Source of the DNA: Siphonodentalium dalli
Lineage: Eukaryota; Mollusca; Scaphopoda; Gadilida; Siphonodentaliidae
Length of the DNA stretch: 64,000 nucleotides
Direction of reading: 5' to 3'
Assembly: GCA_032622095.1 (NCBI GenBank)
Contig: CP136069.1
Span: 1,833,462-1,897,461 of the forward strand
A program made the position numbers and the translations under genes. This document shows positions 5,026 to 64,000 of this stretch, in pieces; positions within the stretch are counted from its first letter, which is position 1; the number at the start of each line of letters is the position of its first letter. Below the pieces are notes generated by a model. The model worked only from the letters and a program-made list of their open reading frames with translations. It searched no databases and had not been told where the DNA came from.

Positions 5026-5936
5026 AATCTATGGGGCGCCATCCCTGCAAATATTCGTTTTCGGAAATATCTCCTTGGATCCAAGCAGATATCTGCTCGC
5101 ATTATGGAGATATCTCCTCGGTTTCAAGCAGATATCTGCTTGGAATATGGAGATATCTCCTCGGAAATATTTTCAAGGAGATATCTCTTTGAAACCGAGG
5201 AGATATCTCCATAATGCGAGCAGATATCTGCTTGGATCCAAGGAGATATCTCCTTGGATCCGAGCAGATATCTGCTTGCATTATGGAGATATCTCCTTGA
5301 AATATGTTCAAGAATATATCTCCTTGGATTCAAGCAGATATCTGCTCGGATTATGGAGATATCTGCTTGAAAAATATTTCAAGAAGATATCTCCATATTC
5401 CGAGCAGATATCTGCTTGGATGTATTTCGATCATAGATATATGTACTGTGGAGAAATCATTAATATTTCATGGCCGCGGTTTTTCAAGGAGATATCTCCA
5501 TAATCCAAGCAGATATCTGCTTGGAATATTTTCAAGGAGATATCTGCTTGGAATATGGAGATATCTCCTTGGGTCCAAGGAGATATCTCGTTGAAAACTA
5601 TTTCAATGAGATATCTCCATAATCCGAGCAGATATCTGCTTGGATCCGAGCAGATATCAGCTCGGTTTCAAGGAGATATCTCGTTGGAAATATTTCAAGC
5701 AGATATCTCGTAGTTGCGAGGAGATACCTCCTAGGATCCAAGGAGATATCTCCATAATCCAAGCAGATATCTCCTTGGATCCAAGGAGATATTTCCATAA
5801 TGGACCATATTCCAAGCAGATATCTGCTAGGAATTGCAATTCCAAGGAGATATCTCCTCGAAACCTAGGAGATATCTCCGAATTACGAGGAGATATCTCC
5901 GAAAACGAATATTTGCAGGGATGGCGATCCATACAA
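5026..5936. mobile_element. TIR-bounded array of GATATC-centred palindromes
   Basis: Inverted ends (CGCCATCCCTGCAAATATTC, continuing to about 5070 on the left; complement at about 5886-5925 on the right) enclose about 830 bp in which nearly every 25-35 bp carries GGAGATATCTCC or GCAGATATCTGC. I count about 30 GATATC cores by hand. Spacers are also self-related (TTGGATCCAAG, TTTCAAG, CATAATCC). ACAAAT flanks both ends as a possible partial target duplication. Open frames on both strands (repeats of DISLK, RYLLG, QISAW) come from the palindromic composition and are not genes. Confidence 0.85.
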
Positions 5937-8363: not shown

Positions 8364-9798
8364 AGATCACCATTATTATATTACCTCAAAGTTATAATAC
8401 TGACGATCACCATTATTATATTACCTCAAAGTTATAATACTGACGATCACCATTATTATATTACCTCAAAGTTATAAAACTGACGATCACCATTATTATA
8501 TTACCTCAAAGTTATAATACTGACGATCACCATTATTATATTACCTCAAAGTTATAAAACTGACGATCACCATTATTATATTACCTCAAAGTTATAAAAC
8601 TGACAATCACCATTATTATATTACCTCAAAGTTATAATACTGACGATCACCATTATATTACCTCAAAGTTATTAAACTGACGATCACCATTATTATATTA
8701 CATCAAAGTTATAATACTGACGATCACCATTATTATAATACCTCAACGTTATAAAACTGACGATCACCATTATTATAAAACCTCAAAGTTATAAAACTGA
8801 CGATCACCATTATTATAATACCTCAAAGTTATAATACTGACGATCACCATTATTATATTACCTCAAAGTTATAATACTGACGATCACCATTATTATAATA
8901 CCTCAACGTTATAAAACTGACGATCACCATTATTATAATACCTCAAAGTTATAAAACTGACGATCACCATTATTATAATACCTCAAAGTTATAATACTGA
9001 CGATCACCATTATTATATTACCTCAAAGTTATAATACTGACGATCACCATTATTACTTTACCTCAAAGTTATAAAACTGACGATCACCATTATTATAATA
9101 CCTCAAAGTTATAATACTGACGATCACCATTATTATATTACCTCAAAGTTATAAAACTGACGATCACCATTATTATATTACCTCAAAGTTATAATACTGA
9201 AGATCACCATTATTATATTACCTCAAAGTTATAAAACTGACGATCACCATTATTATATTACCTCAAAGTTATAATACTGACGATCACCATTATTATATTA
9301 CCTCAAAGTTATAATACTGACGATCACCATTATTATATTACCTCAAAGTTATAAAACTGACGATCACCATTATTATAATACCTCAAAGTTATAAAACTGA
9401 CGATCACCATTATTATATTACCTCAAAGTTATAAAACTGACAATCACCATTATTATATTACCTCAAAGTTATAATACTGACGATCACCATTATATTACCT
9501 CAAAGTTATTAAACTGACGATCACCATTATTATATTACATCAAAGTTATAATACTGACGATCACCATTATTATAATACCTCAACGTTATAAAACTGACGA
9601 TCACCATTATTATAATACCTCAAAGTTATAAAACTGACGATCACCATTATTATAATACCTCAAAGTTATAATACTGACGATCACCATTATTATAATACCT
9701 CAACGTTATAAAACTGACGATCACCATTATTATAATACCTCAAAGTTATAAAACTGACGATTACCATTATTATAATACCTCATATTTATAAAACTGAC
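8364..9798. repeat. 40-bp minisatellite array, copy 2, with internal large duplication
   Basis: About 36 copies of the same 40-bp unit as at 1-689. A distinctive shortened unit (CACCATTATATTACC, then ATTAAACTGA) occurs at about 8641 and again about 837 bp later, each time followed by the same series of variants. The array has therefore grown by block duplication as well as unit by unit. Confidence 0.97.
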
Positions 9799-27550: not shown

Positions 27551-29267
27551 ATGTCTGACAATACAGACATCGATGATTTCACGAGATATTTCATTTTATC
27601 AGAATTTGAAGAGCTTCCACCTCCAAATAGACCACTTGCAAGCAACAGTGATGAAATTACAGAATTATCTGATACAATTATGCCAGTATTGGCCGGCTCG
27701 AACTCTGAAAGTGAAACTGGTACATTTCGACTTCGTACCGAAATTAACAGTCAACAACAAGGTGAATGTGTTTTGAGCTCAGGCGTTAGGCCTGATAGAT
27801 CAGGGAGCCATTTCAGACTTTATTGCTGATCAAGAAAATTTGAACACACGTAAAAAAAAAATGAAAGTGACATGCGTCTGTTTAGTGTATTCTGTTATTT
27901 GAGAATTTCCTCAGTGTTGTCAAAAAAACCAATGGGGACGATTATGAACCTTCGACTATTCGAGGATTTGTGTCCAGTTTGGAGCGTTATTTACTTTCAC
28001 AGCACTATCCCCACACTGTCAATAAGAACCCTCTCTTTCCACACTGTAACAAGGCTGTTGTTGCAAAGATGAAATATCTAAAATCTCTTGGTCGTGGTAA
28101 TAAACCGAATGAATCAGATGAATTGACTGATGAAGACATTGAAAACTTCTTCAAGACAGGTCAGATGGGAATCGACACACCCAACCAGATAGTGAATTTC
28201 CTTCATGTAACATTCTCAATGGTTCTTGGAATGCGCGGTGGCAGAGAACACCGTAGCCTAACATGGGGTGACATAAGCCTTTCTACAGATGAGGATGGTG
28301 ATGAATATTTGGAGCATGTACGTGAGCGGCAAACTAAAACTCGAACAGGCACAGATCCAACAAATATTAGGAAATTGAAACCAAAGGCATGGCACTATAT
28401 GGAAGATATGCAACGCTGTCCAGTACGAGCTTACAAAATATATAGAGACAAAAGAACTCCTGTACACCTGACTCGCCATTCTTCCTTGAGATAAACTATA
28501 CGAAAAATCCCAATCTACCTTGGTTCAAAAATTGTCCTATGGGAGTGAACCATATTTATGGTCTTGTAAAGAAAATGAAATCAAAATGTGATGAAATAAT
28601 GCAGAAAGAAGATACAAGGAAAATAACAAACCACAGAGTACGCAAACATATGATGCAGAAATGTAACGATATGGGACTGCCTGCTAATTGTACTATCCAA
28701 ATAAGTGGACACAGGAATGTAGGCAGTGCAAACAATTACAGTAAGTTGAATGAAAAGCAACAGAAATCAATATCAACTTCTCTAATGTGCCCCCTGGCGT
28801 CAGCCAGTTCTGCGGTTGTTCCGTATCGACATTCAATGGCACCAAAACCAGTATCTCAGAACCATGCTTCTGCATCATGTTCTACTGTTACTAGTATGAA
28901 TCATCAACTTGATCAAGCTCAACATGAAATGAATTATGATTCCACATGTATTTCAACATCATCGGTGTCAACAAATAACCAAAACTTTGAACTGGACACA
29001 AACTTTGTCGCCTCTTCCCAAAAGTCAATGACAGTAACAAAATCAGGCATGGACTCTAACAAGAGAGTCGTGATAAGAGATAACAGGGACTGCACATTCC
29101 ACTTCAATTTCTACGGATCAAACATGACTGAAGTCGAGCAACAAAAGGGACTTGCCAACGATTATGCGGAAGGAGTTATAAATACACCCGTAAAACGAAG
29201 AAGAATATTACCAATTATCGAATCAGATGATGAGGATGACGGCAAATTCCAGTTGAATGAGCTTTGA
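27551..29267 (+). pseudogene. Broken Crypton-type tyrosine recombinase (DUF3504/KIAA1958-like)
   Basis: The product resembles Crypton and Crypton-derived (KIAA1958, ZMYM/QRICH1 C-terminal) tyrosine recombinases, which cut and rejoin DNA through a tyrosine nucleophile. Pieces in order: an acidic N-terminus; an N-terminal core-binding part (DYEPSTIRGFVSSLERYLL, 27930-27995); the first catalytic arginine region GMRGGREHRSLTWGDI (about 28230-28273); the C-terminal box NHRVRKHM (HxxR, about 28630); GHRNVG; and NNYSKL with the candidate nucleophilic Tyr at about 28740. A tail with NCTF-like RDCTFHFNFY follows. Reading frame changes at about 27780-27810, in an A10 run at about 27853, at about 27895 and at about 28463. 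It is therefore a decayed copy, although some breaks could be sequencing errors in homopolymers. Confidence 0.88.
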
Positions 29268-36739: not shown

Positions 36740-37757
36740 TAAAGGAAGATAATCTGAAATATAGATAATATTGAATGTCAAAAGGAGATAACCCATAACT
36801 CATAATTATATATAGATACTGTTCAATGTCAAAGGGAGATAACTCATACATGATAATTAAATATAGATAATATTGAATGTCAAAAGGAGATAACCCATAA
36901 CTTATAATTATAAATAGATAATATTGAATGTCAAAGGGAGATAACCGATACCTCATAATTAAATATAGATAATATTGAATGTCAAAAGGAGATAACTCAT
37001 AACTCATAATTAAATATAGATAATATTGAATGTCAAAAGGAGATAACTCATAATTAAATATATATACTGTTGAATGTCAAAGGGAGATAAAAGGGAGATA
37101 ATTAATATCTCATAATTAAATATATATACTGTTGAATATCAAACGGAGATAACTCATACCTCATAATTAAATATAAATACTGTTGAATGTCAAACGGAGA
37201 TAAAAGGCGATAAAAGGGAGATAATTAATATTTCATAATTAAATATAGATACTGTTGAATGTCAAAGGGAGATAACTCATACCTCATAATTAAATATATA
37301 TACTGTTGTATGTCAAAGGGAGATAAAAGGCAGATAATTTATATCTCATAATTAAATATAGATACTGTTGAATATCAAAGGGAGATAACTCATACCTCAT
37401 AATTAAATATAAATACTGTTGAATGTCAAAGGGATATAAAAGGGAGATAATTAATATCTCATAATTAAATATATATACTGTTGAATATCAAACGGAGATA
37501 ACTCATACCTCATAATTAAATATAAATACTGTTGAATGTCAAACGGAGATAAAAAGGCGATAAAAGGGAGATAATTAATATTTCATAATTAAATATAGAT
37601 ACTGTTGAATGTCAAAGGGAGATAACTCATACCTCATAATTAAATATATATACTGTTGTATGTCAAAGGGAGATAAAGGGCAGATAATTTATATCTCATA
37701 ATTAAATATAGATACTATTGAATGTCAAAGGGAGATAAAAGGGAGATAATCCATAAC
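36740..37757. repeat. GGGAGATAACTC minisatellite, left part
   Basis: Tandem 50-60 bp units of the form TGTTGAATGTCAAAGGGAGA then TAACTCATACCTCATAATTA and AATATAGATAC. A block of about 350 bp, including ATATCAAACGGAGATAACTC and the unusual AAAAGGCGATAAAAGGGAG, is duplicated (about 37110-37460 and 37460-37740). The 102-codon minus-strand frame of repeated SYGLSPFDIQYYL is repeat read-through, not a gene. Confidence 0.95.
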
Positions 37758-39005
37758 TCATGTAAAACACAACTGTTGGAATATCTGTCACACGTTACAT
37801 CAGAACTCGACAGAGGCGAACCGGTAGATGTGATATACCTAGACTTCCAAAAGGCGTTTGATACTGTGCCACACGAGAGGTTGATTCACAAACTGAGAGC
37901 ATATGGTATACAAGGCAGTTTGATAACATGGATTCGAGACTTTCTAAGTAATAGAATACAGCGTGTTAAAGTAAACAGTGAGTGTTCAGAATGGATGAGT
38001 GTTACGAGCGGAGTTCCACAGGGTAGTATATTGGGTCCTATTCTATTCATAATATTCACCAATGACTTAACAGATAGTGTTAAAGGGATATGCCATATAT
38101 TTGCTGACGACACTAAACTGGTAGGCAACCCTAATACAAGTAACATCCAAAACAATATTGATGATGTGTGCCAATGGTCAACAAATTGGCAACTTAAATT
38201 CAATTCCTCAAAAATTTACGTGCTGCACTTTGGATTCAACAACCCTCGGCATCAATACAACATGACAGATTCGACAGAAAGGCCACCAATTCTAGTGAGC
38301 GGGTATGAAAAAGATCTGGGAGTGACTATTGATACGCAACTAAAGTTTGATTGCCATATTAACAGTGTGTAGTCGCGCATATAGAACTCTGGGCATAATC
38401 AGGAGAACTTTCGCCAGTTTAGAACCAGATACATTTAGCTACTTGTACGGGTCTATGGTGAGACCAATACTAGAATATTGTAATACGGCTTGGAACCCTC
38501 ATCACAAGAACAGAAGCATAACCTTTGAACGGGTGCAGAGGCGAGCAACAAAAATGGTGCCGAAATTTCGAAAATTAAGTTATAGAGACAGAATGATAAA
38601 CCTTGGTTTGATGTCTTTGAAATATCGCCGATTCAGAGGTGATATGATAGAGACATACAAATACCAGAATGAGTTATACAACGTGGACGAGAGTAAACTG
38701 TTCAAGCGAGCAGAGTACACCCGAACAAGAGGTAACACTATGAAATTGGCATATTCGAGATCGTCGAAGGATATCGGGATGTTCTTCTGCAACCGAATTG
38801 TTTCCAGCTGGAATGCCATGCCTGATTATATTGTACAATCGCAAACGCTAGAAGAATTCAAAACTCTATTGGACAATCACTTCCGCCCAATACGGTACGA
38901 ATATGATACAGAAGGGATGGATTGCCATGCAGTAAAATAACTTTTGATATAATCCGGAACTAAGAGTCATTCGACTCGTTCTGTGTATCGTGATGTTATG
39001 TTATA
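37758..39005 (+). pseudogene. 5'-truncated CR1/Jockey-like LINE (reverse transcriptase)
   Basis: The frame enters at SCKTQLLEYLSH and carries the RT palm motifs VIYLDFQKAFDTVPHERL (first catalytic Asp), SGVPQGSILGPILFIIFTND and FADDTKL (catalytic DD pair), then GYEKDLGVTID. At about 38368 the frame shifts and continues SRAYRTLGIIRRTFASL, RPILEYCNTAWNPHH, QRRATKM and the C-terminal SSWNAMPDYIVQSQTLEEFK to the stop at 38940. The endonuclease and ORF1 are missing. The 3' end carries a TGATGTTATGTTATAAC-type tail. It sits inside the GGGAGATAACTC minisatellite, which resumes on its right. Truncated and frameshifted, so inactive. Confidence 0.92.
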
Positions 39006-41605: not shown

Positions 41606-44527
41606 ACTTACACTTACACTTACACTTCTTCTTCTTTGCACTCACGTATGAGCAACCTCCATTCGGAGTGTAACCATCATCCCCATAATTGTCGCGTACC
41701 GGTATGGAATACAAAATTTGTACAGGTAGGTTAAGGTACTGCGAATGTGTGATTGAGTGCTTTTATTCGCCCTTTCTTCCCCTCCTTCAGTTTCTTCGCC
41801 AACTCGAGCATAATCTTCAGTCTTGTGCAGTGTAGTAGGTAACAGTATCTGTTTGCGGCTATGTTTATTTAATCTGGAGTTTGATGTGTTGTTTGAAATT
41901 ATATTTGTGACATCTAGGATGCTTTGCATTTTTTCTTTTTCCTCCATATCGTTAAAGTTCTTGAAGTTCAGTTGGTTATATTCTTTTGTGAAATGATTTA
42001 GCACTCTCTCCCGTGTATCCTGCAAGGCTCCGCACCGCAGCATGAAGTGGGTCCTGTCCTCTGTTTCAATACAGCACATTCTACATCTCCCGTCAGAATT
42101 CTTTTTATAGTCAGCTCCTTCTAGCGTGTATGTATTTGTTAGAAGTTTAAGTCTTACTGCCAGCATAGCGGCTGCCCTTTCTGGGTTGATGCCTGTCTCC
42201 AGGATAGGGTGAGTTTTTCCGACTTGAAAGTTGATGTTGATAAAGCTGAGATTTTTATATGTTATAGCCTGGTTGATGATGAGATTTCTCCAATGACGAT
42301 TGATCGCTTGCTTCACCATTTCTTTCCATTGTTGTCTTGAGTAAGGTTGTTTAAGTAGGTCCACAGCAGATGGTAGATCGTATTTAATTAGGAGCATTTT
42401 GGATTTAATGAACCAACTGTGACTTTCTTTGTCCTTTACCGTGATTTGACGTTCTGCTAGCCTTCTCTCGATGGATTTTTCAGATTGAGTACAGATGTTA
42501 TAGTAGAAGCATAATGTTTTTATGTTGATCTGCATGTGCTTCGACTGGCAGCAGTCCAGTTAGGATGTAGATCACTGGGTCAGCAACGTTCACGGGAAGA
42601 GATAGTATTCGTTTGAGAAGCTTCTTTTGGAACATCTCCAGATCAATCAGATTTCTTCCATATGGTAAAAGGATTTCGCAGCCATAAGTCAGTACTGGGA
42701 TAATATACGTGCGGTAAAGATGGGTACAGCTAACAGGGTCCAAGCCATTCATTCCATGCATTCCCACTGGCATCAGACTGTATGTGGATCTTCGTGCTTT
42801 CTTGATGTTGGATTCTTTTGACTTCTTGGCTGATAGGTCCATGCTGTTCGAGCGTATTATACCAATGTGTGGGGTATTGTTTTCAGCAGGCATATCATCA
42901 CCATGCATCTTCCATGTTAAAGTGGTCTTCTTTCGGTTAACATAGTAGTTTGGATGGATTTCCACGGTGACGCTCTTTTGCGGCTGTAGTTTGTATCTGT
43001 GTAGCCTGCTATAGTGATGAGCATAGTTAATAAGAATTTGTACTCTGCCGGATTAGGACTAAATACTGCGATGTCGTCCGCGCATGTCGTAGCGTTGACT
43101 CTGTTTCCAATCTTCGGACCGACATCTGCCTTCAGGAATACATCCAGTAGGTCTTCCATATAGATCTTGTACAGGTCGGCGCTCAGTATTTCACCTTGTC
43201 TCACTCCGTGTTCGATGGTAAAATCGTCAGACATCTTTCCGCCCCATTTCACAACTGATGTACATCCGTTATGTAGGTCGTCGATCAGCTTCCATACTTC
43301 ATTCTTGATATTAAACTGTGCCACTTTCCGCATGAGCATCTGGTGGCTAACTACATCGAACGCCCATTTTGCATCTAAGAATGCAACATACAGTGGTTGA
43401 TGGAGATCACGACTTTCTCTGATAGTCTCTTCAAGCAGTAAAGCACTGTTGAGCGGCGAAGAACCAGCTGTGAATCCTCTCTGGATAGGCGACTGCAATG
43501 GTAAGGCAGCATCTCTCAGATCAATACGCAGGACGTGTTCAAGAATCTTTAGCAAGACAGATAATATGGTGATTCCCCTGTAGTTACCAGAGCTGCATTT
43601 ATCGCCTTTCTGTTTGTAGATTGGTGTTACCATCCCAGTTTTCAGCTCATCTGGAATATGTTGGGTACGAAGAATTTCATTGATGATATTTGTAATTTCT
43701 TGTAGGGTTGTCTCAGAAGCATAAGCTAGGTGTTCTGTTTTAAGACCGTCTAGGTCTGCAGCTTTACCTTTCTTCATGCAGCTTATTATCTTCTTCAGTT
43801 GTTCGCAGTTGATTTTTGTGGTGGATTCAGAAGAATACATAGATTCTTTGAGGATGTTGTAGTCTTCGTTACATAACTTATGAAAGTTGTGGATGTATTC
43901 GCTATCTTTGGATTTTGCGAGTTCGCTGAAGTGAAGATTCCAACCGTTAATAACTTCAGAATCGCTGAAGATCTTTCCGTCGACATGGAGATCAGAGATG
44001 AATTGTTGTGATTTCCCTCTTTGTCGCTTAATCATCTTGTACATCATACTTCTGTCTTTTTCACCAGCATTAAGTATCTTCTCTCGCAGGTCACGATTTT
44101 CTTGACATATGGCTTTATTGACTTCGTGTCGATAACATTTCCTGGCATCTTTCTTAAGCTGACTTAAGTGGCCCTCGTTTGGTTTCCCGTAGTCTCTCCA
44201 TCGCTTTGAAATCGAACGGTACTCATGTAATTTTTCAGAGATCATGTCGTTCCATACAGCTAATTTTGGGTTGTTCTTTCTTTTGCCCTTTTTCTTTGGA
44301 GCTGATTCTTCAGCAGTAGTGACCATGATATTAATTACTTCTTTGATGTTGTCGCCAGATTGTTCTGTAAGTAAGGAGCTGCCGTTTTTGAATTTCCGGA
44401 GTCCCTCATCAAGCCGTCCTTGATATTTTGTCAGATCCACCTTCTCCCATCTGATTCTTGGTGTAGATTTTTGGTTGGGGTCTCTATTACTGAATCGGAT
44501 TGTAACATGTGGTTGATTGTTAGACAT
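41606..44527 (-). pseudogene. LINE ORF2: reverse transcriptase and C-terminal zinc knuckle (broken)
   Basis: RT half of a non-LTR element whose 3' tail (repeats of AAGTGT read on the minus strand) lies at 41605-41637. In order: linker; GNYRGITILSVLLKILEHVL; FLDAKWAFDVVSHQML with the first catalytic Asp; EHGVRQGEILSADLYKIYME; CADDIAVFSP, where Cys replaces the usual Tyr/Phe of YADD/FADD; thumb region with YRTYIIPVLTYGCEIL and MFQKKLLKRILSLP; and a CCHC-like knuckle (CRMCCIETEDRTHFMLRC). The frame shifts twice, at about 42950 and about 42515. The stop is at 41642. The lineage is not assigned; the CADD box and knuckle are its most distinctive traits. Confidence 0.92.
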
Positions 44528-45205
44528 TTTGGTAGATGATCAGAGGTATTCGCTTCCATCTCGACTATCTCAGTTGCGAGCCTTTTTGTGTTTCTCGGGT
44601 ACATGATGAAATCGATTTCCGACACACGTATACCCTTAACATTCATGACTGTGTAGCCGTTAGTATTTGTTGTTAGATTAGCGTCCGCCATGAAGCTCCG
44701 TAGGGCTATCGCACGATCTGAATTGTTAGCGATGTTCACGTCTTCATTCAGGTCGCCTCCGATATATATCTTGTGAGTATCAGCATACTTGTAGTATATC
44801 TCACGCAGTTGGTCTAACAGCTCTTCATACTCTCTGGGCTGTGCGTTTGATCTTGTCGGCATATATACGTTGATGATTAGAAGTGGTTCAGTTATTTTTA
44901 ATTCGATGCATTGGATACGAGTACCGCCGTCTGACACCGCTCTCACATGCTTGTCCAAAGATCGTTTCCATAGGCATGCTACACCGCCGTATCCCCTAGG
45001 TAGTTTTATCTGAAGAAGAGGATCTTGAGTATCTACAGCTTTTCCGATTCCGGTCATTTCTGCGTTGATTTCATTAAGAAGGTTTAATTCAAAGTCGAAC
45101 AACCAGTGTTCTTGGATTAAGAATGTGTCAAAGGTTTGCAGCAGATCCTTGAAGGTTTGAGCACATGATTTGATGTTTTTACAATTGTAGGTTAAAAGAC
45201 ATAAT
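44431..45205 (-). pseudogene. LINE apurinic-type endonuclease domain
   Basis: This lies upstream of and in a different frame from the RT. It begins before the first ATG with LLTYNCKNI and FLIQEHWLFD, the N-terminal active-site region of APE-like endonucleases. It continues with RGYGGVACLWKRSLD, IINVYMPTR, YIGGDLNEDVN (catalytic Asp/Asn) and SEIDFIMYP, and ends with the SDHLP box. Together these give nearly all endonuclease motifs, so this copy is close to full length. A frameshift near 44500 separates it from the RT. Confidence 0.9.
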
Positions 45206-45232
45206 TTAGAATGTACGGTTGATTCGGATGAT

Positions 45233-46026
45233 TCAGTAGATGTTATCTTCTACCGCGGTGAGTCTGGCCTCGGTACAAAAAACGATGCTGATTATATCCT
45301 TCGTCTTGGGTCCTCGCATTATAGTCGTCGTTTCTGTGTTGGGAAGAGCAGTATCTTGATTTGAGGTAAGTTGAGAACGATGGTTTTCGTATTGCTGTCT
45401 ATTCGATGAAGCTGTCTCCTTATTAGTCGAGTTGTTGTGCCGAGGGTGTACATAATGAACAGCGCTCAGTTGAGAATGAGGCATTACATTGTGACGTCGT
45501 TCTGTATACTCCGGGTCAGCGTTGACATGAGGATGTAATTGCGTATGATGGTTTAGGTTGGCATTTTGTGCTTGGAAGCTGTGTGAAGCTCCGATTACAT
45601 CCGGTGCTGATGGTTTATTTGCTGCATGGATATGAGTACTTGGCGAGTTTGTTTTCGTGTTTGCAGTTTCTGTAGCAGGATGTTTAGATGTTGTAATGTA
45701 CAGATTCCATTTTATCAAGCTGGTTATTGATTTGTTTCATTACAATGTTTGTCACACGATGTTGTAATTGATGTATCCTTCTGAAATTGTTGATATAGGA
45801 GGATTCATAGGAGGATTCATAGCAGGTTGTTGTTGGGTGTTCACATGAGTAATTTGTTTTCTGGTAGAATGAGTAGTTGTTTCTTTAGCAGATCATTGCT
45901 TTTCTCTAGCTCGTTGATCTTCATTTCTAGCTTCTGTATGTACGATTTAAACCAGATTCTCTCCTCATCAAAATCCTTTATGATACGCTCTTTCAGTTTA
46001 ATATCTTCCTCTCTTTTGCGCACTTT
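45233..46026 (-). pseudogene. LINE ORF1-like remnant: coiled coil and low-complexity region
   Basis: Two frames upstream of the endonuclease. The first (46023-45841) reads as a charged coiled coil (KREEDIKLKERIIKDFDEER, KLEMKINELEKSNDLLKKQL), typical of LINE ORF1 proteins or gag-like N-termini. The second (45718-45233) is rich in Asn, His, Thr and Pro with no globular domain and ends just before the endonuclease. The coding-like sequence stops abruptly at 46026, where the TIR element at 46027 begins, so the LINE 5' end appears cut there. Confidence 0.6.
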
Positions 46027-49656: not shown

Positions 49657-50277
49657 CTGATGACATATAACGCTGTGGTGTGGTAAAACAGAAATATAAT
49701 GCTCTGATATGGTACACATATTAATATAATGATGTGGTGTGGTAAAACAGAAATATAATGCTGTGGTATGATAAAACAGATATATAATTATTTGATATTG
49801 CACATTCACTGGTTTATCTCTTAAAATATATTCACTTTGGTTGAGAACATGGACATTCTTTCGAAAACCAGAAAGTGTTTTCATTATGAATGAAGTGACC
49901 AAATTTGTTTTAATATATTCTTTTCTCCTCAAAATAAATTCATAGGTTTCTGGATTGAGATTAAATTCTGGAAGATTTAGTATCTGAACAAATTGCCATG
50001 ACCCACAATGTTGATATTACCACCTCTGTGCCACATGAACTCAGACTGCTCTCATACGTGTGTTTCGATTGTTTGTAACTGAGACTTTTCTTATGTGTTT
50101 ATATTCAGTATTTATAACTGAAACTTCTGGAATACATGTGAATATTGAGTGTTTATTATTGAAACTTCTGGCATACGTTTATATATCAAGTGTTTGTAAC
50201 TGAGACTTCTCGTATATTCATGTGTACCGATTGTTTGTGACATATTTCTTATTGAGATGTTCTGCTGTCTTCTCAAG
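49657..50277 (+). other. Repeat remnants and intron before the CTLD exon
   Basis: 49665-49790 holds GGTAAAACAGAAATATAATG repeats like those at 39.4-40.1 kb. 50060-50240 has four loose copies of TGTTTGTAACTGAGACTTCT. The interval ends in a good acceptor, TGTTCTGCTGTCTTCTCAAG at 50277. Confidence 0.75.
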
Positions 50278-50478
50278 CTTGCAGAGGAATTGCTGGATAC
50301 TCACAGCATACGCTGGACGGAGGTGTATACTGTCTTCGATACGTCGCAACACACAGGAGCTGGAATGACGCCCGAGATCACTGCGCTTCAGACGGAGCTC
50401 ATCTTATCACTATACGGAGCCGTCAGATGTTAGATGACCTGGTCAGTTTACTCGATACATGGGGCCATCGTAGAACAA
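50278..50478 (+). CDS. C-type lectin-like domain exon (N-terminal half)
   Basis: A 201-bp exon encoding the first half of a long-form C-type lectin-like domain. It reads CRGIAG, then GGVYCLRY, the hallmark SWNDARDHC and DGAHLITIRS, then a second helix (QMLDDLVSLL) ending DTWGHRRT. The extra N-terminal Cys pair typical of long-form CTLDs is present. The acceptor is at 50277 and the donor ACAA|GTAAGT at 50479; both introns are phase 1, compatible with the TSP1 exons upstream. The C-terminal half (WIGL, EPN/QPD calcium site, WND) is not found in this window. CTLDs are extracellular ligand-binding folds; sugar binding cannot be judged without the missing half. The exon's 3' part and donor seed the tandem array that follows. 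Confidence 0.9.
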
Positions 50479-51590
50479 GTAAGTATACCCATCTTATTAC
50501 TATACGGGGCCGTCAGATGTTAGATGACCTGGTCAGTTTATTCGGGACATGGGGCCTTCCTAGAGGACGTAAGTATACCCATCTTATCACTATACGGAGC
50601 CGTCAGATGTTAGATGGCCTGGGCAGATTATTCGGGAGGACATGGGGCCTTCCTAGAGCAAGTAAGTATACCCATCTTATCACTATACAGAGCCGTCAGA
50701 TGTTAGATGACCTGGACCGTTTACTCGAGAGGACATGGGGCCTTCCTAGAGCAAGTAAGTATACCCATCTTATCACTATACGGAGCCGTCAGATGTTTGA
50801 TGACCTGGTCAGTTTACTCGATACATGGGGCCATCGTAGAGCAAGTAAGTATACCCATCTTATTACTATACGGGGCCGTCAGATGTTAGATGACCTGGTC
50901 AGTTTATTCGGGACATGGGGCCTTCCTAGAGGACGTAAGTATACCCATCTTATCACTATACGGAGCCGTCAGATGTTAGATGACCTGGTCAGTTTATTCG
51001 GGACATGGGGCCTTCCTAGAGGACGTAAGTATACCCATCTTATCACTATACGGAGCCGTCAGATGTTAGATGGCCTGGGCAGTTTATTCGGGAGGACATG
51101 GGGCCTTCCTAGAGCAAGTAAGTATACGCATCTTATCACTATACGGAGCCGTCAGATGTTAGATGACCTGGACCGTTTACTCGATAGGACATGGGGCCTT
51201 CCTAGAGCAAGTAAGTATACCCATCTTATCACTATACGGAGCCGTCAGATGTTTGATGACCTGGTCAGTTTACTCGATACATGGGGCCATCGTAGAGCAA
51301 GTAAGTATACCCATCTTATTACTATACGGGGCCGTCAGATGTTAGATGACCTGCACAGTTTACTCGATACATGGGGCCATCCTAGAGGACGTAAGTATAC
51401 CCATCTTATTACTATACGGAGCCGTCAGATGTTTGATGACCTGCACAGTTTACTCGATACATGGGGCCATCCTAGTGGACGTAAGTATACCCATCTTATT
51501 ACTATACGGGGCCGTCAGATGTTAAATGGCCTGGACAGTTTACTCGAGACATGGAACCATAATAGAATATGTAAGTAAATGCATCTTATC
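50479..51590 (+). repeat. CTLD exon-donor tandem array, part 1
   Basis: About 12 further copies of a 90- or 93-bp unit. Each consists of the 3' part of the CTLD exon (HLITIRSRQMLDDLVSLL then GTWGLPRGR) followed by the splice donor GTAAGTATACCC. The unit length is a multiple of three, so one frame stays open from 50427 to 51578. Units with GRTWGL instead of GTWGL carry three extra bases. I count 13 GTAAGTA donors including the exon's own. No acceptor-like pyrimidine tract lies inside the unit. Confidence 0.95.
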
Positions 51591-52517
51591 ACATAATATA
51601 GAACCATGAACGGGAGCGTAAGAACCGAAACCTAATAATGAAACGTACTGTATGTGAAGTTCGTTAATATACCAGAGACGCTCGCCTGATGACTGCAATT
51701 GCTGGCTGTATTATTTTATGATTCCCAACATTTTAAATACCTATTTTCGGCTTGGTCTTATTAAACATTTTCCAAAGTATATAATTTACGCCTCCTAATG
51801 TTATCAAGCTATGCAGACAATCAAACATAAAAAATATTATTGTGTAGACTTTACTGTAGCAGTATAATGTTTGCAAACTATACTAAAAAACACTTATAAA
51901 GAGCGTTCCATTTGCATATGCATTTTATATACACTTATCTCTATGCAATTCATATTATATTTGGGTCATTTTTTCAGTTTAATCCCTTCATACACTGCTA
52001 ATGAAATTCGGGGTCCAGCCCTTTATATGTAACAGTCCTCAATTCATAATGTTGTTACCCCTTATTAATTGTAAGTGCATTACAATTCGTACAATTATGT
52101 ACGATATGAACATAGCTGTGTTACACCACTAAATGTATCATCTGGCAGTAGAGCCAATGCATAAGCATACACTTTTGTTTACAATTAAGAATTTTTCCCG
52201 GTAGTACAATCAGGAAAGTCTATGTGTAAGTTTTTATAATAATTCGTGTATAGTATCATTTTTGTGTATATTGCTTGGTGTGTGGCCCTCGTGATATTTC
52301 TATGATTTAAACTTGCTGAACGGTTTGACTGGTTCGCTGCCGTTCTATGCTTATTATATATTTATTTTGACATTCAAAATTGTCCGTGTGGTGCTTCGGA
52401 ATGTGTACCTAGGGTTATTACGCACCTTTGTCCATGTTACCGAAGACACGTTTACCCCTGTACTCTACGGTGTTCCCAGCCTCCCTGGATCTCTATATTG
52501 TTACAACATAATATAGA
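51591..52517 (+). other. Unique spacer splitting the exon-donor array
   Basis: About 930 bp of AT-rich sequence with no ORF of interest. Both boundaries carry CATAATATAGAACCATGA (about 51592 and 52506), so the spacer could be an insertion into the array or a duplication junction. Confidence 0.65.
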
Positions 52518-55500
52518 ACCATGATCGATATTGTAAGTATACCCATCTTATCACTATACGGAGCCGTCAGATGTTAAATGACCTGGACAGTTTACTCGAG
52601 ACATGGAACCATAATATAATATGTAAGTATACCCATCTTATTACTATACGGGGCCGTTAGATGTTAAATGGCCTGGACAGTTTACTCGAGACATGGAACC
52701 ATAATAGAATATGTAAGTATACGCATCTTATCACTATACGGAGCCCGGGAGCCGTCATATGTTAAATGACCTGTACAGTTTACTCGAGACATGGAACCAT
52801 AATAGAATATGTAAGTATACCCATCGTATCACTATACGGAGCCGTCAGATGTTAAATGGCCTGGACAGTTTACTCGAGACATGGAACCATAATAGAATAT
52901 GTAAGTATACGCATCTTATCACTATACGGAGCCGTCAGATGTTAATTGACCTGGACAGTTTACTCTCGACATGGAACCATAATAGAGGATGTAAGTATGC
53001 GAATCTTATCACTATACGGAGCCGTCAGATGTTAGATGACCTGTACAGTTTTCTCGTGACATGGAACCATAATAGAATATGTAAGTATACGCATCTTATC
53101 ACTATACGGAGCCGTCATATGTTAAATGACCTGGACAGTTTACTCGTGACATGGAACCATAATAGAATATGTAAGTATACCCATCTTATCACTATACGGA
53201 GCCGTCAGATGTTAAATGACCTGGACAGTTTACTCGTGACATGGAACCATAATAGAATATGTAAGTATACGCATCTTATCACTATACGGAGCCGTCATAT
53301 GTTAAATGACCTGTACAGTTTACTCGTGACATGGAACCATAATAGAATATGTAAGTATACGCATCTTATCACTATACGGAGCCGTCATATGTTAAATGAC
53401 CTGTACAGTTTACTCTCGACATGGAACCATAATAGAATATGTAAGTATACCCATCTTATTACTATACGGGGCCGTCAGATGTTAAATGACCTGTACGGTT
53501 TACTCGAGACATGGAACCATAATAGAGGATGTAAGTATACGCATCTTATCACTATACGGAGCCGTCATATGTTAAATGACCTGTACAGTTTACTCGAGAC
53601 ATGGAACCATAATAGAATATGTAAGTATACGCATCTTATCACTATACGGAGCCGTCATATGTTAAATGACCTGTACAGTTTACTCTCGACATGGAACCAT
53701 AATAGAATATGTAAGTATACGCATCTTATCACTATACGGAGCCGTCATATGTTAAATGGCCTGGACAGTTTACTCGAGACATGGAACCATAATAGAATAT
53801 GTAAGTATACGCATCTTATCACTATACGGAGCCGTCAGATGTTAAATGGCCTGGACAGTTTACTCGAGACATGGAACCATAATAGAATATGTAAGTATAC
53901 CCATCGTATCACTATACGGAGCCGTCATATGTTAAATGACCTGTACAGTTTACTCGAGACATGGAACCATAATAGAATATGTAAGTATACGCATCTTATC
54001 ACTATACGGAGCCGTCATATGTTAAATGACCTGTACAGTTTACCCGAGACATGGAACCATAATAGAATATGTAAGTATACGCATCTTATCACTATACGGA
54101 GCCGTCATATGTTAAATGACCTGTACAGTTTACTCGAGACATGGAACCATAATAGAATATGTAAGTATACGCATCTTATCACTATACAGAGCCGTCAGAT
54201 GTTAATTGACCTGGACAGTTTACTCTCGACATGGAACCATAATAGAGGATGTAAGTATGCGAATCTTATCACTATACGGAGCCGTCAGATGTTAGATGAC
54301 CTGTACAGTTTTCTCGTGACATGGAACCATAATAGAATATGTAAGTATACGCATCTTATCACTATACGGAGCCGTCATATGTTAAATGACCTGGACAGTT
54401 TACTCGTGACATGGAACCATAATAGAATATGTAAGTATACGCATCTTATCACTATACGGAGCCGTCAGATGTTAGATGACCTGGACAGTTTACTCGAGAC
54501 ATGGAACCATAATATAATATGTAAGTATACGCATCTTATCACTATACGGGGCCGTCAGATGTTAAATGACCTGTACAGTTTACTCGAGACATGGAACCAT
54601 AATAGAATATGTAAGTATACGAATCTTATCACTATACAGAGCCGTCAGATGTTAATTGACCTGGACAGTTTACTCTCGACATGGAACCATGATAGAATAT
54701 GTAAGTATACGCATCTTATCACTATACGGAGCCGTCATATGTTAAATGACCTGTACAGTTTACTCTCGACATGGAACCATAATAGAATATGTAAGTATAC
54801 GCATCGTATCACTATACGGAGCCGTCATATGTTAATTGGCCTGGACAGTTTACTCTCGACATGGAACCATAATGGAGGATGTAAGTATTCGAATCTTATC
54901 ACTATACGGAGCCGTCAGATGTTAGATGACCTGTACAGTTTTCTCGTGACATGGAACCATAATAGAATATGTAAGTATACGCATCTTATCACTATACGGA
55001 GCCGTCAGATGTTAAATGACCTGGACAGTTTACTCGTGACATGGAACCATAATAGAATATGTAAGTATACGCATCTTATCACTATACGGAGCCGTCATAT
55101 GTTAAATGACCTGTACAGTTTACTCTCGACATGGAACCATAATAGAATATGTAAGTATACCCATCTTATTACTATACGGGGCCGTCAGATGTTAAATGAC
55201 CTGTACGGTTTACTCGAGACATGGAACCATAATAGAGGATGTAAGTATACGCATCTTATCACTATACGGAGCCGTCATATGTTAAATGACCTGTACAGTT
55301 TACTCGAGACATGGAACCATAATATAATATGTAAGTATACGCATCCTATCACTATACGGAGCCGTCAGATGTTAAATGACCTGTACGGTTTACTCGAGAC
55401 ATGGAACCATAATAGAGGATGTAAGTATACGCATCTTATCACTATACGGAGCCGTCAGATGTTAATTGACCTGGACAGTTTACTCTCGACATGGAACCAT

Positions 55501-57600
55501 AATAGAGGATGTAAGTATGCGAATCTTATCACTATACGGAGCCGTCAGATGTTAAATGACCTGGACAGTTTACTCTCGACATGGAACCATAATAGAATAT
55601 GTAAGTATACCCATCGTATCACTATACGGAGCCGTCATATGTTAAATGACCTGTACAGTTTACTCGAGACATGGAACCATAATAGAATATGTAAGTATAC
55701 GCATCTTATCACTATACGGAGCCGTCATATGTTAAATGACCTGTACAGTTTACCCGAGACATGGAACCATAATAGAATATGTAAGTATACGCATCTTATC
55801 ACTATACGGAGCCGTCATATGTTAAATGACCTGTACAGTTTACTCGAGACATGGAACCATAATAGAATATGTAAGTATACGCATCTTATCACTATACAGA
55901 GCCGTCAGATGTTAATTGACCTGGACAGTTTACTCTCGACATGGAACCATAATAGAGGATGTAAGTATGCGAATCTTATCACTATACGGAGCCGTCAGAT
56001 GTTAGATGACCTGTACAGTTTTCTCGTGACATGGAACCATAATAGAATATGTAAGTATACGCATCTTATCACTATACGGAGCCGTCATATGTTAAATGAC
56101 CTGGACAGTTTACTCGTGACATGGAACCATAATAGAATATGTAAGTATACGCATCTTATCACTATACGGAGCCGTCAGATGTTAGATGACCTGGACAGTT
56201 TACTCGAGACATGGAACCATAATATAATATGTAAGTATACGCATCTTATCACTATACGGGGCCGTCAGATGTTAAATGACCTGTACAGTTTACTCGAGAC
56301 ATGGAACCATAATAGAATATGTAAGTATACGAATCTTATCACTATACAGAGCCGTCAGATGTTAATTGACCTGGACAGTTTACTCTCGACATGGAACCAT
56401 GATAGAATATGTAAGTATACGCATCTTATCACTATACGGAGCCGTCATATGTTAAATGACCTGTACAGTTTACTCTCGACATGGAACCATAATAGAATAT
56501 GTAAGTATACGCATCGTATCACTATACGGAGCCGTCATATGTTAATTGGCCTGGACAGTTTACTCTCGACATGGAACCATAATGGAGGATGTAAGTATTC
56601 GAATCTTATCACTATACGGAGCCGTCAGATGTTAGATGACCTGTACAGTTTTCTCGTGACATGGAACCATAATAGAATATGTAAGTATACGCATCTTATC
56701 ACTATACGGAGCCGTCAGATGTTAAATGACCTGGACAGTTTACTCGTGACATGGAACCATATTAGAATATGTAAGTATACGCATCTTATCACTATACGGA
56801 GCCGTCATATGTTAAATGACCTGTACAGTTTACTCTCGACATGGAACCATAATAGAATATGTAAGTATACCCATCTTATTACTATACGGGGCCGTCAGAT
56901 GTTAAATGACCTGTACGGTTTACTCGAGACATGGAACCATAATAGAGGATGTAAGTATACGCATCTTATCACTATACGGAGCCGTCATATGTTAAATGAC
57001 CTGTACAGTTTACTCGAGACATGGAACCATAATATAATATGTAAGTATACGCATCTTATCACTATACGGAGCCGTCAGATGTTAAATGACCTGTACGGTT
57101 TACTCGAGACATGGAACCATAATAGAGGATGTAAGTATACGCATCTTATCACTATACGGAGCCGTCAGATGTTAATTGACCTGGACAGTTTACTCTCGAC
57201 ATGGAACCATAATAGAGGATGTAAGTATGCGAATCTTATCACTATACGGAGCCGTCAGATGTTAAATGACCTGGACAGTTTACTCTCGACATGGAACCAT
57301 AATAGAATATGTAAGTATACGCATCTTATCACTATACGGAGCCGTCATATGTTAAATGACCTGGACAGTTTACTCGAGACATGGAACCATCCTCGAGATA
57401 GTAAGTATACGCATCTTATCACTATACGGAGCCGTCAGATGTTAAATGACCTGTACGGTTTACTCGAGACATGGAACCATAATAGAATATGTAAGTATAC
57501 GCATCTTATCACTATACGGAGCCGTCAGATGTTAGATGACCTGGACAGTTTACTTGAGACATGGAAACACAGAAGAAGTAAGTATACGCATCTTATCACG
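52518..57600 (+). repeat. CTLD exon-donor tandem array, part 2
   Basis: About 57 copies of the 90-bp unit, now of the type HLITIRSRHMLNDLYSLL then ETWNHNRIC, each with GTAAGTATACGC. An 8-bp duplication at about 52745 shifts the first three units out of frame with the rest. From 52759 the frame then stays open for 1658 codons. Most differences between units change the amino acid (Q/H, D/N, V/D/Y, E/V/S, I/G) and few are silent, which argues against selection on a protein. The last unit degenerates after 57580. I do not regard the 1658-codon frame as a demonstrated gene. Confidence 0.93.
53881..57300 (+). repeat. 1,710-bp direct duplication within the array
   Basis: 53881-55590 and 55591-57300 are 19-unit blocks with the same order of variants. 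The rare SLPETW unit occurs at 54041 and again exactly 1,710 bp later. I see only two differences between the blocks (near 55346/57056 and 55052/56762). Very recent duplication, or an assembly artefact. Confidence 0.9.
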
Positions 57601-59279
57601 TCATATGTTCGATTACCTGGACAGCGTACTCAGTGCATTAAAGGTACTCAATCCGACTCGATGGTCCCCATATCATCAGATTTCAACAACAACATTTTTT
57701 TTTTAAATGCCGCTTCAGTTATCAGAATCGATTAATTAACCAAAAATAATGCTAACCACAGTCAAATATAGCATAACATTGCCCAAAACCTGTTATTTAT
57801 CAACATTTCTTTCAAATATCTGACACAAAAGAGTCACTTGATTTTAGAGTTATCCATCTTCGTCCGCAAATTTGGTCCGAGGCAGTATTCTCGTCGACTT
57901 TTATTCGGCCACTATATATTCGAAGTGGTGAAAAATAATAGATTAAAAAAAATTTGGGCAGTTCTTCAGTAGGCGCGCGCTGATAAGATCGGGACCAGAA
58001 GCCTTATCGGGCTGAAGTTTTTTTTAGTGTATTATAGACTTCTAATTCGGAAATTTCAATGCTTTGCAATATAGTATGATTAAGGTCATCTTCGATTATG
58101 TCTGGGGTTTTACTGGGTATAGCTATAGAGGCAATATTACTGAAGTAAATATTAAGTACTGGGGATTTTTTGTCATCTGACGAAACAACATTACCCTGCC
58201 AATGTTAATGAACCAATTGAGCCAGGATCGAGGCCCCAGCAAGTGATTGCATATAATTAAATACGAATATTATCCCTCTCTTTACTAAATTGATTCTTCT
58301 ACCCAGTTATAACTGTATACATAGGAATATTGTATTATTTGCTTGCCCAGTTATACAAGAATAAATCTCCATCACCATTTACGATTAAAACCTGCTTCGC
58401 CATCATTAGGCGGCTTATGTAGGGATAATGTACCATGCACCTCACCAAAGGGTCCACTGACACCACCACGAATGGTTGCATATAATTAAACACCAGCATG
58501 CTCACCCATTAAATACTAGCACGGTCACACATGTAGCATATTAAAAATTAGCCAAAGTTGTTACTGGGTGTTGGCTGAATACTTTCATATTCTGTATCTG
58601 TGTCACAATTTAACCCATATCCCTTACGACTGTAGTAGCCCGATCCCCATCACTGACAAGGCCACCATCACTTACGATTATTAAACTACACTAATATCTG
58701 GTATTATTAAGATGACTATAGGTTTTTGTGAAGTCAGAAACAACATTTTTAGCAAATTTGGTGCCCCTTTTCCTGGGCTCAATTCCCGAATCGAACAATA
58801 AACCTCACTGTTTGATTCCTCGATCGTATCATAAAGATACCTGTATATATTTACACACACCTAAGTTTGTAGGAAAACCGGAGCGAAATTATATACGTTT
58901 TGTTCCCCTCCGGGATCCCGTTCCTGACCTGAGCAGTATCACTTCGAAAACAAAATGAAACTATACGTCATTAGACTCCGTATGTCAGTGGGATGCATAT
59001 ATATAATTTTACAGGAAATGTGTGATGAAAATGTTTTATCATAATGTTTTATCATATTTGTGGTGCGCATCTCGTATCACTTTCCTGGCTTGAACGGCGT
59101 CCCGTCGGCATCTTCAAACCGCATAATTAGATTCTATCTGTCATCGAAATGACTCTATATCATTTTGGTTAAATCGGTGTCCAAAAACATTTCATCGTTT
59201 TTAGTGCCCCTTCCATTCTGCTTTATGCTTTAATGAACCCAATCGTGAGATAACACGCGTTAGAGTTGACAAACATATT
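57601..59279. other. Spacer, no gene seen
   Basis: AT-rich with short ORFs lacking recognisable domains. The missing second half of the CTLD was searched for by eye (WIGL, EPN, QPD, WND and Cys spacing) and not found here. Confidence 0.55.
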
Positions 59280-61377
59280 TACACCATTTACATTTAATAA
59301 TGCTGAACGGTCACCAGTGGTCAACATCATCGGCCATCATCATCACCATCATCACCACCATTGTCGTCATCATCATCATCATTATCACCATCGTCATTAT
59401 CATCATCATCATCGTCGTCTCACCATTGCCATCATCATCATCACCATCATTGTCATCATTATCATCATCATCATCGTCGTCGTCTCACCATTACCATCAG
59501 CATCATCATCGTCGTCATCATCATATTTACACCATTTACATTTAATAATGCTGAAGGGTCATCAGCGATCAACATCATCGGCCATCATCATCACCATCAC
59601 CATCATCGTCGTCGTCATCATCAGTATCACCATCGTCATCACCATCATCATCATCGTATCACCATTACCATCATCACCATCACCATCATCGTCATCATTA
59701 TCATCATCATCATCATCAGCATCTGTATCATCATCACCATCGTCACCATAATCATCATCATCATCATCATCGTCGTCGTTGTCGTCATCTAACCACTTCC
59801 GTCGTCATCAGCAGCATCATCATTATCATCAATATGGTGATGATCATCGTCATCATCTTTAACATCGTATTATCACCATCACCAATACCATCATCTTCAT
59901 CATCATCGTCATCATCATCATCATCATTATCATCATCATCATCATCATCGTCATCATCATCATCATCATCACCATCATCATCAGCATCATAGCCGTCGTC
60001 GACGTCGTCTCACCACTACCACCGTCATACCACCATCATCATCAAAAGCATCACCATCATATTTATCACCATCATCGTCATCATTATCATCATCATCAGT
60101 ATCATCATCATCAGCATCATCGTCGTCGCCGTCGTAGTCGTCTCACCACTACCATCGTCATAAGCATTATCATTATCAGTATGGTGATGGTCGTCGTCAT
60201 CATTGTCATCATATTTAACACCGTCGTCTTTCAATCTTCATCAATAGCATCATCATCATCTTCATCACCATCATCGTCATGATTATCATCATCATCATTA
60301 TCATTACCATCATCGTCGTCTAACCACTATTATCATCATAATCAGAATCTGCATCATTTTCATCGTCGTCATCACCATTGTCATCATCAGCAGCATCACC
60401 ATCACCATCGCCGTCGTCGTCTGACCACTACCATCAGCGTCATCATCGTTGTCGTCGTCATCATCATCGATCTCATCATCATCATTGTCGTCTCACCACT
60501 ATCATCATCATCAGCATGTTTATCATCATATCATAATGATTATCATTATCATCATCATTATCATCATTATCATCAACAGCATTATCATCATCTATATCAT
60601 CATCATCATTATCATCAAAATCATTTTCATCATCATCATCAACATCATCATCGTCATCGTCGTCTCACCATTATCATCATCAGCATCATCATCATCACAA
60701 TCGTCATCATCTTGGTCATCATCATCATCACCATCGTCGTCTCATCAGCATCATCACCATCATCGTCATCGTTATCACCATCAGCATCATCACCATCATC
60801 GTCATCGTTATCACCATCATCATCATTATCATCATCAGTATCATCATCATCGCCGGCGTCGTCTTACCACTACCATCATCATCTCACCATCATCATCAAA
60901 AGCATCAAAATCATCATCGCCATCATCATCGTCATCATCATCATCGTCATCATCATCATCATCATCGTCATCATCGTCATCATCATCACCATCATCAGCA
61001 GCAGCATCATCAACAGTATCACCATCATCATCACTATCATCATCATCTTCAGCATCATCACTATCATCATCATCACTATCAACATTATCATCATCATCAG
61101 CAGCAGCAGCAGTGGCATCATTATCATCATCATCATAATCGTCGTCTCACCACTACCATCATCATCAACATCGCGATCGTCATAATGATCATCATCACCA
61201 TCGTCATCGCGATCGTCATCGTCATCATCATCGTCATCATCATAATCATCATCATCAACATTATCATCATCATCATCATCATCATAATCATCAATAGCAG
61301 CATCATCTTCATCATCATCATCATCATCATCATCACCTGTCATTACATCGTCATCTCACCATCATCATCGTCTTCAT

Positions 61378-61408
<31 letters not shown>

Positions 61409-61670
61409 AGTAGCATCATTATCATCATCATCATCGTCGTCGTCTCACCACTACCATCATCATATTCAGCATCATTAGCATCGTCATCATGGTCATTATC
61501 ACCATCGTCATCGCGATCGTCATCAGCATCATCATCGTCAACATCATAATCATCATTAACATCATCATCATCAACATTATTATCATCATAATCATCAATA
61601 GCCGCATCATCTTCATCTTCATCATCATCACATGTAATTACATCGTCATCTCACCATCATCATCGCCATC

Positions 61671-61702
<32 letters not shown>

Positions 61703-62096
61703 CATCACCATCATCATCATCATATTCATCATCAGCATCATCGTCATCATCTTCGTCATCATCATAACCATCATCACCATCACTATCATTATTGCCATCA
61801 TCATCATCATCGTCATCTCACCACTTCCGTCGTCATCAGCAGCATCCATCATTATCGCCATTATCATCAGTATGGTGATGATCATCGTCATCATCTTTAA
61901 CTTCTTATTCTCACCATCATCAATAGCATCACCATCATCTTCATCACCATCTTCGTCATCATCATCATTATCATCATCATCATCTTCATCATTGTCACCG
62001 TCGTCGTCTCACCACTACCACCGTCATATCACCATCATAATCAAAAGCATCACCATCATCTTTATCACCATCATAGTCATCATTATCATCATCAGT

Positions 62097-62129
<33 letters not shown>

Positions 62130-64000
62130 GCCGTCGTAGTCGTCTCACCACTACCATCGTCATCAACAGCATCATTATCATTATCAGTATGGTGATGGTC
62201 ATCGTCATCATCGTCATCATATTTAACATCGTCGTCTTTCAATCTTCATCAATAGCATCAGCATCATCTTCATCACCATCATCGTCATGAGTATCATCAT
62301 CATCAGTATTATCATTATCATCATCATCGTCGTCTAACCACTATCATCATCATCATCACCATCAGCATAATTTTCATCGTCGTCATCATCATTATCATCA
62401 TCATCGTCGTCGTCGTCGTCTCACCACTATCATCAGCATCATCATCGTTGTTGTCGTCGACATCATCATCATCGATATCATCATCATCATCATCATCATC
62501 AATAGCATCACCATCATCATAATCATCATTAACATCGTCCTCTCACCATCATCATCAATAGCATCACCATCATCTTAATCATCATCATCAACATCATCAT
62601 TATCATCATCATCCTCATAGCCATCATTAACATCGTCATCTCACCATCATCAACAATAGCATCACCATCATCAGCATCATCATTAACATCGTCATCTCAT
62701 CATCATCACAAATAGCATCACCATCATCATTAACATCGTCATCTCATCATCATCATCAATAGCATCACCATCATCACCACCATTAACATCGTCATCTCAC
62801 CAACATCACCAATAGCATCACCATCATCATTAACATCGTCATCTCATCATCATCATCATCATCACCATCATCACCATCATCATTAACATCGTCATTTCAT
62901 CATCAATAGCATCACCATCATCATAATCATCATCGTCAACATCAATATTATCATCATCATTATCATCGTAATCATCATTAACATCGTCATCTCACCATCA
63001 TCATCAATAACATCACCATCATCATAATCACCATCATCAACATCATCATTATCATCATCATCATAAACATCATTAACATCGTCATTTCACCATCATCATC
63101 AATAGAATCACCATCATCATAATCATCATCATCAACATCAACATTAGCATCATCATCATCATCGTAATCATCATTAACATCGTCATCTCACCATCATCAT
63201 CAATAGCATCACCATCATCATAATCATCATCATCAACATCATCATTATCATCATCATCATAACCATCATTAACATCGTCATCTCACCATCATCATCAATA
63301 GCATCGCCCTCATCATAATCGTCATCATCAACATCATCATTATCATCATCGAAATCATCATTAACATCGTCATCTCACCATCATCATCAATAGCATCACC
63401 ATCATAATAATCATCATCAACATCATCATTATCATCATCATCATCGTAATCATCATTAACATCGTCATCTCACCATCATCACCAATAGCATCACCATCAT
63501 CATAATCCTCATCATCAACATCATCATTATCATCATCATCATCGTCGTAATCCTCATTAACATCGTCATCTCACCATCATCATCAGTATCATCACCATCA
63601 TCATAATCATCATCATCAACATCATCATTATCATCAACATCGTAATCATCATTAACATCGTCATATCACCATCACCATCAATAGCATCACCATCATCATA
63701 ATCATCATCATCATCATCATCATCATTAACATCGTCATCTCACCATCATCACCAATAGCATCACCATCATCATAATCATCATTAACATCGTCATCTCACC
63801 ACCATCATCAATAGCATCACCATCATCATAATCATCATCATCAACATCATCATTATTATCATCATCATCGTAATCATCATTAACATCGTCATCTCACCAC
63901 CATCATCAATAGCATCACCATAATCATCATCATCAACATCATCATTATTATCATCATCATCGTAATCATCATTAACATCGTCATCTCACCATCATCATCA
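59280..64000. repeat. CAT/CGT trinucleotide array with higher-order structure
   Basis: About 4.7 kb of CAT, CAC and CGT trinucleotides running off the right edge. Recognisable higher-order units include a block of about 245 bp starting CATATTTACACCATTTACAT (59273 and 59523), a pair about 2.0 kb apart (59791-60480 and 61821-62470) sharing TATGGTGATGATCATCG and GTCTTTCAATCTTCATCAAT, and from 62.5 kb units of about 60-110 bp with TTAACATCGTCATCTCACCA and TCAATAGCATCACC. ORFs of His, Ser, Ile, Met or Asp runs in all frames are artefacts of the repeat. Confidence 0.97.

Follow-up and report, generated by a model that had tools for sequence, protein, structure and literature searches.

A tandem array that spans an exon-intron junction is known from intron 7 of human F7, for which the study of Borensztajn (2006) is reportedly the primary paper. 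This intron is reported to carry 37-bp repeats that vary in number, with the authentic donor inside the first of them, and the most upstream donor alone is used (PMC6627357). Intron gain through tandem genomic duplication has also been described (PMC4974935 and PMC3443670), and metazoan U1 is reported to retain long noncoding RNAs in the nucleus and to suppress intronic or premature polyadenylation (PMC11489095).

We analyzed a stretch of 64,000 nucleotides (the window; C9:1833462-1897461) from the Siphonodentalium dalli genome (2.23 Gb in 9 contigs), which contains a long array of 90-bp units. Like the F7 intron 7 repeats, this is a tandem array that begins at an apparently authentic donor, with donor-like sites repeated downstream and a copy number that varies. 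Unlike them, it is built of a 90-bp unit that is divisible by three and mostly exon-derived, counts 70 predicted donors, is interrupted by an inserted spacer and coexists with shorter stages elsewhere in the genome. With intron gain by tandem duplication, it has in common that the duplicated sequence carries a splice signal; it differs in that no in-frame acceptor was found in the unit, and new introns are for this reason not expected from it. A limited literature search returned no report of this array. Ordinary minisatellites and satellites consist of head-to-tail units, undergo in-register multi-unit duplication, have diverged units at their edges and change in copy number between recent duplicates. 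The array shares these four traits and differs from ordinary minisatellites in that its unit derives from a lectin exon plus donor. Junction-spanning repeats are already known from F7, and the array is a larger member of this kind with shorter stages in the same genome. We consider it very probable that the array is a minisatellite with a unit that by chance lies across an exon-intron junction.

The units are arranged head to tail, each joining the final 79 bp of a C-type-lectin half-exon (50400-50478) to about 10 bp of intron. TRF called one repeat at 50400-51554, with 12.7 copies and 91% matches, and a second at 52516-57599, with 56.4 copies and 92% matches, and 70 GTAAGT donors were counted, 13 in one block and 57 in another. 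This agrees with the original prediction that the 3' part of a CTLD exon and the first bases of its intron were amplified about 70 times as a 90-bp unit; the single array that it described proved to be two blocks, with a spacer of about 0.9 kb between them. Block 1 (50400-51580, plus strand) has 13 units with donors from 50479 to 51571, which are spaced 90 bp or, four times, 93 bp apart and lie in the exon's frame. Block 2 (52513-57587, plus strand) has 57 donors (52533 to 57578) spaced 90 bp apart, except for one spacing of 98 bp and one of 87 bp, and its opening unit is unit-like at the 3' end alone. The non-array spacer (51610-52505, plus strand; 896 bp) is flanked by 19-bp direct repeats, ACATAATATAGAACCATGA (51591-51609 and 52506-52524), and gave no Pfam match in its three plus-strand frames. 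A diverged partial unit (57588-57631, plus strand) directly 3' of the last donor matches the consensus unit over 33 bp at 82% and over 12 bp at 100%. A 19-unit tandem duplication was found at 53868-57320 (plus strand), where 53868-55610 recurs 1,710 bp further on, at 55578-57320, with 2 differences in 1,743 bp, indicating that array growth is recent. No RNA family reached its gathering score. With 69 units of 90 bp plus edge pieces, the array falls among minisatellites, which have head-to-tail units of roughly 10-100 bp.

The sequence GTAAGTAT was present at 69 of the 70 array donors and at one other place on the plus strand of the window. Splice-site scoring included 72 GTAAGT sites, two of which lie in the spacer. 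Since the units were cut at GTAAGT, the presence of a donor in 70 of 70 is partly by construction; a donor-independent anchor, ATACGG or ATACAG, was found at 69 places with matching spacing, and the spacings revealed no donor-less unit. The claim that nearly every unit keeps GTAAGTA was borne out, as these columns were invariant in 69 of 69 units. Forty-one of the 69 units are distinct. As in F7, the unit extends across an apparently authentic exon-intron junction and its donor is repeated, here to 70 copies; the authenticity of this junction rests on the pattern seen in the exon family, not on transcripts.

Other repeats were observed in the window. A 40-bp satellite unit occurs at 1-690 (17.2 copies) and 8365-9798 (36.0 copies), 7.7 kb apart, and dense repeats of about 22 bp surround a palindrome, AGATATCT, at 5063-5796. 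Triplets of the CAT type form an array at least 4.7 kb long at 59335-64000, which also shows a weak longer period of about 101 bp and continues through positions 1 to about 6000 of L029, about 5-6 kb past the window.

The exon upstream of the first donor (50285-50478, plus strand; 194 nt, GIAGYSQHTLDGGVYCLRYVATHRSWNDARDHCASDGAHLITIRSRQMLDDLVSLLDTWGHRRT) looks, from its sequence, like the N-terminal half of a CTLD. By a rough matrix, its acceptor AG at 50283-50284 lies at the 98.7th percentile of AGs, and an alternative acceptor, giving an exon start at 50278, at the 98.1th. The first donor, CAA/GTAAGTAT (50479-50486, plus strand), is among the seven best-scoring donors of the array. Lectin_C (PF00059) matched the exon at 18.8 bits, under the Pfam cut-off of 22.6, over profile positions 3-41 of 107, which is half a domain, and lectins in the PDB matched it with whole-chain E values of 1.3e-08 (a many-domain chain) and 2.1e-04 (the best single-domain chain). 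Searching the genome with the exon protein yielded 815 candidate places, and all 150 that were scored matched (150/150), which makes the exon one member of a very large family. The lectin expansion in this genome is very large, with many of the candidate places on C1, C2, C8 and C9. In four more distant relatives (L039 and L040, both read by eye on the reverse strand, and L041 and L042), the exon closes with TWGHG and a GTAAG donor comes next, an arrangement close to that of unit 1.

The second half of the CTLD was searched for by Pfam scans of stop-masked plus-strand frames of the window, of the 20 kb that follow it and of L023, L024, L026, L041 and L042. This insensitive scan reported no second half at 57580-59350 or, in window numbering, at 64001-84000, nor in about 4.6-5.9 kb after the exon of L023, L024, L041 and L042, nor in two of three frames of L026. 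The scan reported no family in L041 and L042, though both contain the first-half exon, and the result is thus a weak negative; the window's own exon, inside its long frame, scored an E value of only 0.22. A regular-expression search across the window gave nothing convincing, and no second half of the family was recognizable on reading L043 and L044, two relatives with longer open frames. The second half could be hidden by long introns in this 2.2-Gb genome.

Evidence on the state of the exon was mixed. Its open reading frame, acceptor and first donor are all intact in the window copy, which counts against the minisatellite reading. Comparisons of the exon with 250 bp of upstream intron were contradictory: the intron is more alike between the window and L024 (90.7%, exon 88.5%) and between the window and L027 (93.2%, exon 90.6%), a point for a minisatellite, whereas in all valid comparisons with L026 the exon (89.1-90.6%) is more alike than the intron (77.6-78.9%), again a point against a minisatellite. 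Exon dN/dS, to which no significance test was applied, was 0.59-1.07 over 13 valid pairs with differences, comprising six independent comparisons, five of them below 1. These were 13 of 21 pairs, as six L023 rows were invalid (a stop symbol dropped in the alignment had shifted the codons) and two pairs had no differences. Together, the comparisons are compatible both with weak constraint on the exon and with none. We lean slightly toward a lectin exon that is orphaned or decaying.

Matches to the unit were found in at least seven places outside the window, with 1, 1, 1, 2, 2 and 2 units and 13 donors; these counts are lower bounds. L024, L025 and L026 have one unit each. Two units are present in L023, whose exon has a TGA at its start, and in L027 and L028, where the second unit is cut short; the second donor has been lost in all three two-unit copies, being GTTAGT in L023 and absent in L027 and L028. 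A partial unit after the last donor is common to the window, L021, L023, L024 and L026, which were those tested. Because L024/L025 (99.1% identical over 9.6 kb) and L027/L028 are duplicate pairs, the small copies represent at most four independent loci. L024 (C9 17.64 Mb) and L025 (16.84 Mb) form an inverted duplicate of about 9.6 kb, about 0.8 Mb apart, and are either a recent duplication or an assembly effect.

The second array, L021, lies at C9:3.95 Mb, 2.06 Mb from the window, and has 13 donors, 2 in block 1 and 11 in block 2. It shares its two-block layout and its last unit with the window, and has a spacer 98.9% identical over 895 bp and a downstream flank 96.7% identical. Since flanks and spacer differ by about 1-3%, the difference in copy number between the window and L021 is recent. 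Copy-number instability, a property of minisatellites, is thus evident from 70 and 13 donors in copies whose flanks and spacer are 97-99% alike, as well as from the 19-unit duplication. The lectin exon of L021 is split, near the position equivalent to 50331 in the window, by an inserted element of about 5.4 kb (at about 127-5582 of L021), which has inverted ends, AGTGTAGTGACT and AGTCACTACACT, and by its sequence looks like a DNA transposon. Window frames at 42917-45249 (minus strand), 37722-38372 (plus strand) and 27886-28494 (plus strand), matching RVT_1 (two), Exo_endo_phos and DUF3504, are probably transposable element remains.

A minisatellite growing step by step would be expected to leave a series such as 1, 2, 13 and 70, and this copy-number series in the same genome supports the half of the original prediction that it preferred, a minisatellite born on an exon-intron junction. 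The graded copy numbers occur among relatives of one lectin exon, and those tested share an older, partial copy of the exon's end that lies in the intron close to its start. We infer that the array grew and that the small copies did not arise by loss, with unequal exchange or slippage during replication as the engine. Part of the array stems from the recent 19-unit duplication, made in register. The repeated donors and the open frame would have been carried along, because both lie inside the unit. If the locus is transcribed, the first donor at 50479 would be used and the array removed with the intron, by analogy with the human factor VII repeats.

The unit also contains acceptor-like sites. 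By approximate matrices, and among the best 12 kinds of site listed, CTATACAG/AGC in 5 of 69 units ranks between the 91st and 97th percentiles of AGs in the window, and CTCGATAG/GAC in one unit at the 95th. The earlier statement that no unit contains a plausible acceptor was nearly correct. These sites are, by reading, in phases 0 and 2 and the donors in phase 1, so that their use would shift the frame. Mini-exon cassettes formed with them were ruled out on phase.

For variation among units, unit 14, which is unit-like at its 3' end only, was omitted from the column and variant counts, and mostly gapped columns were omitted from the variant test and the shuffles. Distinct single-base variants, 54 in all and spread over 40 of the 90 columns, were classified in each of six frames and compared with simulated mutations. 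In the lectin frame, 45 of 54 variants replace an amino acid and 6 of 54 are synonymous against 11.6 expected, a deficit with P = 0.035 (one of six frames, uncorrected) that counts against the minisatellite reading; by block, the deficit was not significant, with P = 0.27 (block 1, 20 variants) and P = 0.28 (block 2, 38 variants). The six-frame test thus gave no robust signal, and selection for frame in the array was rejected. Invariance of the donor columns GTAAGTA also counts against the minisatellite reading, with column shuffling P = 0.014 for seven columns and 0.025 for six. Selection for the donor was not accepted on these nominal values for pre-chosen columns, since an equally long invariant run, ACTATAC, occurs elsewhere in the unit, and a longest run of 7 arose in about half of the shuffles (P = 0.49). 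Unit variants are close to neutral, and a robust sign of selection is absent, with two results leaning the other way. The original prediction had taken an excess of amino-acid-changing differences as favoring a minisatellite. This argument is weak given the uncorrected deficit and near-neutral variants, and the excess, if real, would argue for selection and not for neutrality.

Three other explanations of the array were weighed against a minisatellite. Two of them depend on its frames. The exon and block 1 form an open frame of 440 aa (50256-51578, plus strand), which ends at a TAA (51576-51578) in the intron-derived part of unit 13. The original prediction held that every donor has the same phase and that choosing donor n would add n x 30 residues to the lectin domain. 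Taking donor 1 as phase 0, we placed 13 of 70 donors in that phase, 54 in +1 and 3 in +2, and donors 14-70 cannot extend the lectin, because the TAA closes the exon frame and the phase changes. A device for length-variable isoforms would have all donors in the exon's frame; the proposed extension is contradicted for 57 of the 70 by the stop and the phase changes, and the other 13 have no positive support. If restricted to block 1, such a device would let in-frame donors 1-13 compete to add 0 to 12 extra copies of about 30 residues. All spacings there are multiples of three, the 440-aa frame is open and, by the rough matrix, the donors rank between the 95.9th and 99.5th percentiles of GTs in the window. 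Yet the sister copy L021 has just 2 block-1 donors and an interrupted exon, second donors were lost in L023, L027 and L028, the F7 precedent uses the first donor only, and a partner exon was not found by the insensitive search. We regard a block-1 device as highly improbable.

Translation of the array as one or two long exons, encoding 440 and 1672 aa of 30-residue repeats, would account for the second open frame as well (52717-57735, plus strand; 1672 aa). This frame is stop-free across about 54 units, which counts against the minisatellite reading, and in the consensus unit all five remaining frames are interrupted by stops. The 1672-aa frame has no in-frame connection to the lectin exon, and its start lies beyond the TAG of unit 16. 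Units 13 and 16 each carry a point stop in the unit frame, and with an 8-bp insertion in unit 17 these stops break the frame at the block junction, where all three lie; one 88-bp unit breaks the frame of the sister array L021 too. Stop-making variants are as frequent as expected (3 of 54 singly make a stop, against 2.4), and an open consensus unit would give open arrays through copying. We therefore place little belief in a coding repeat and consider it very improbable. The third alternative is a function at the RNA level, in which a transcript of the array would bind U1 snRNP at about 70 sites of 8 nt and be retained in the nucleus or shielded from premature polyadenylation. The sequence at 69 of the 70 donors, GTAAGTAT, is complementary to U1 nucleotides 1-8 (5' end), which favors this proposal. 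The nuclear retention and polyadenylation suppression reported for metazoan U1 also fit it (PMC11489095). Against it, the sites are inherited with the unit, and robust preservation beyond that was not seen; we consider a U1-binding function very improbable. Similarly, it is a long shot that an RNA from this locus, which if transcribed would have about 70 regularly spaced U1-snRNP sites and no in-frame acceptor, is a natural U1 sponge or a chromatin-tethered RNA.

A minisatellite on an exon-intron junction therefore remains the reading we prefer. The genome holds apparent stages of its growth, from one unit plus a partial unit through two units to 13 and 70 donors, and the largest resembles the factor VII repeats on a much greater scale. 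These results also serve as a warning, since the growth of an array can by itself generate dozens of strong donors and open frames as long as 1,672 aa, and gene predictors may misannotate them. Transcription of the locus, if it occurs, would offer a natural experiment on how splicing chooses among dozens of near-identical donors, and its expression one on first-donor choice in the presence of up to 13 in-frame donors.
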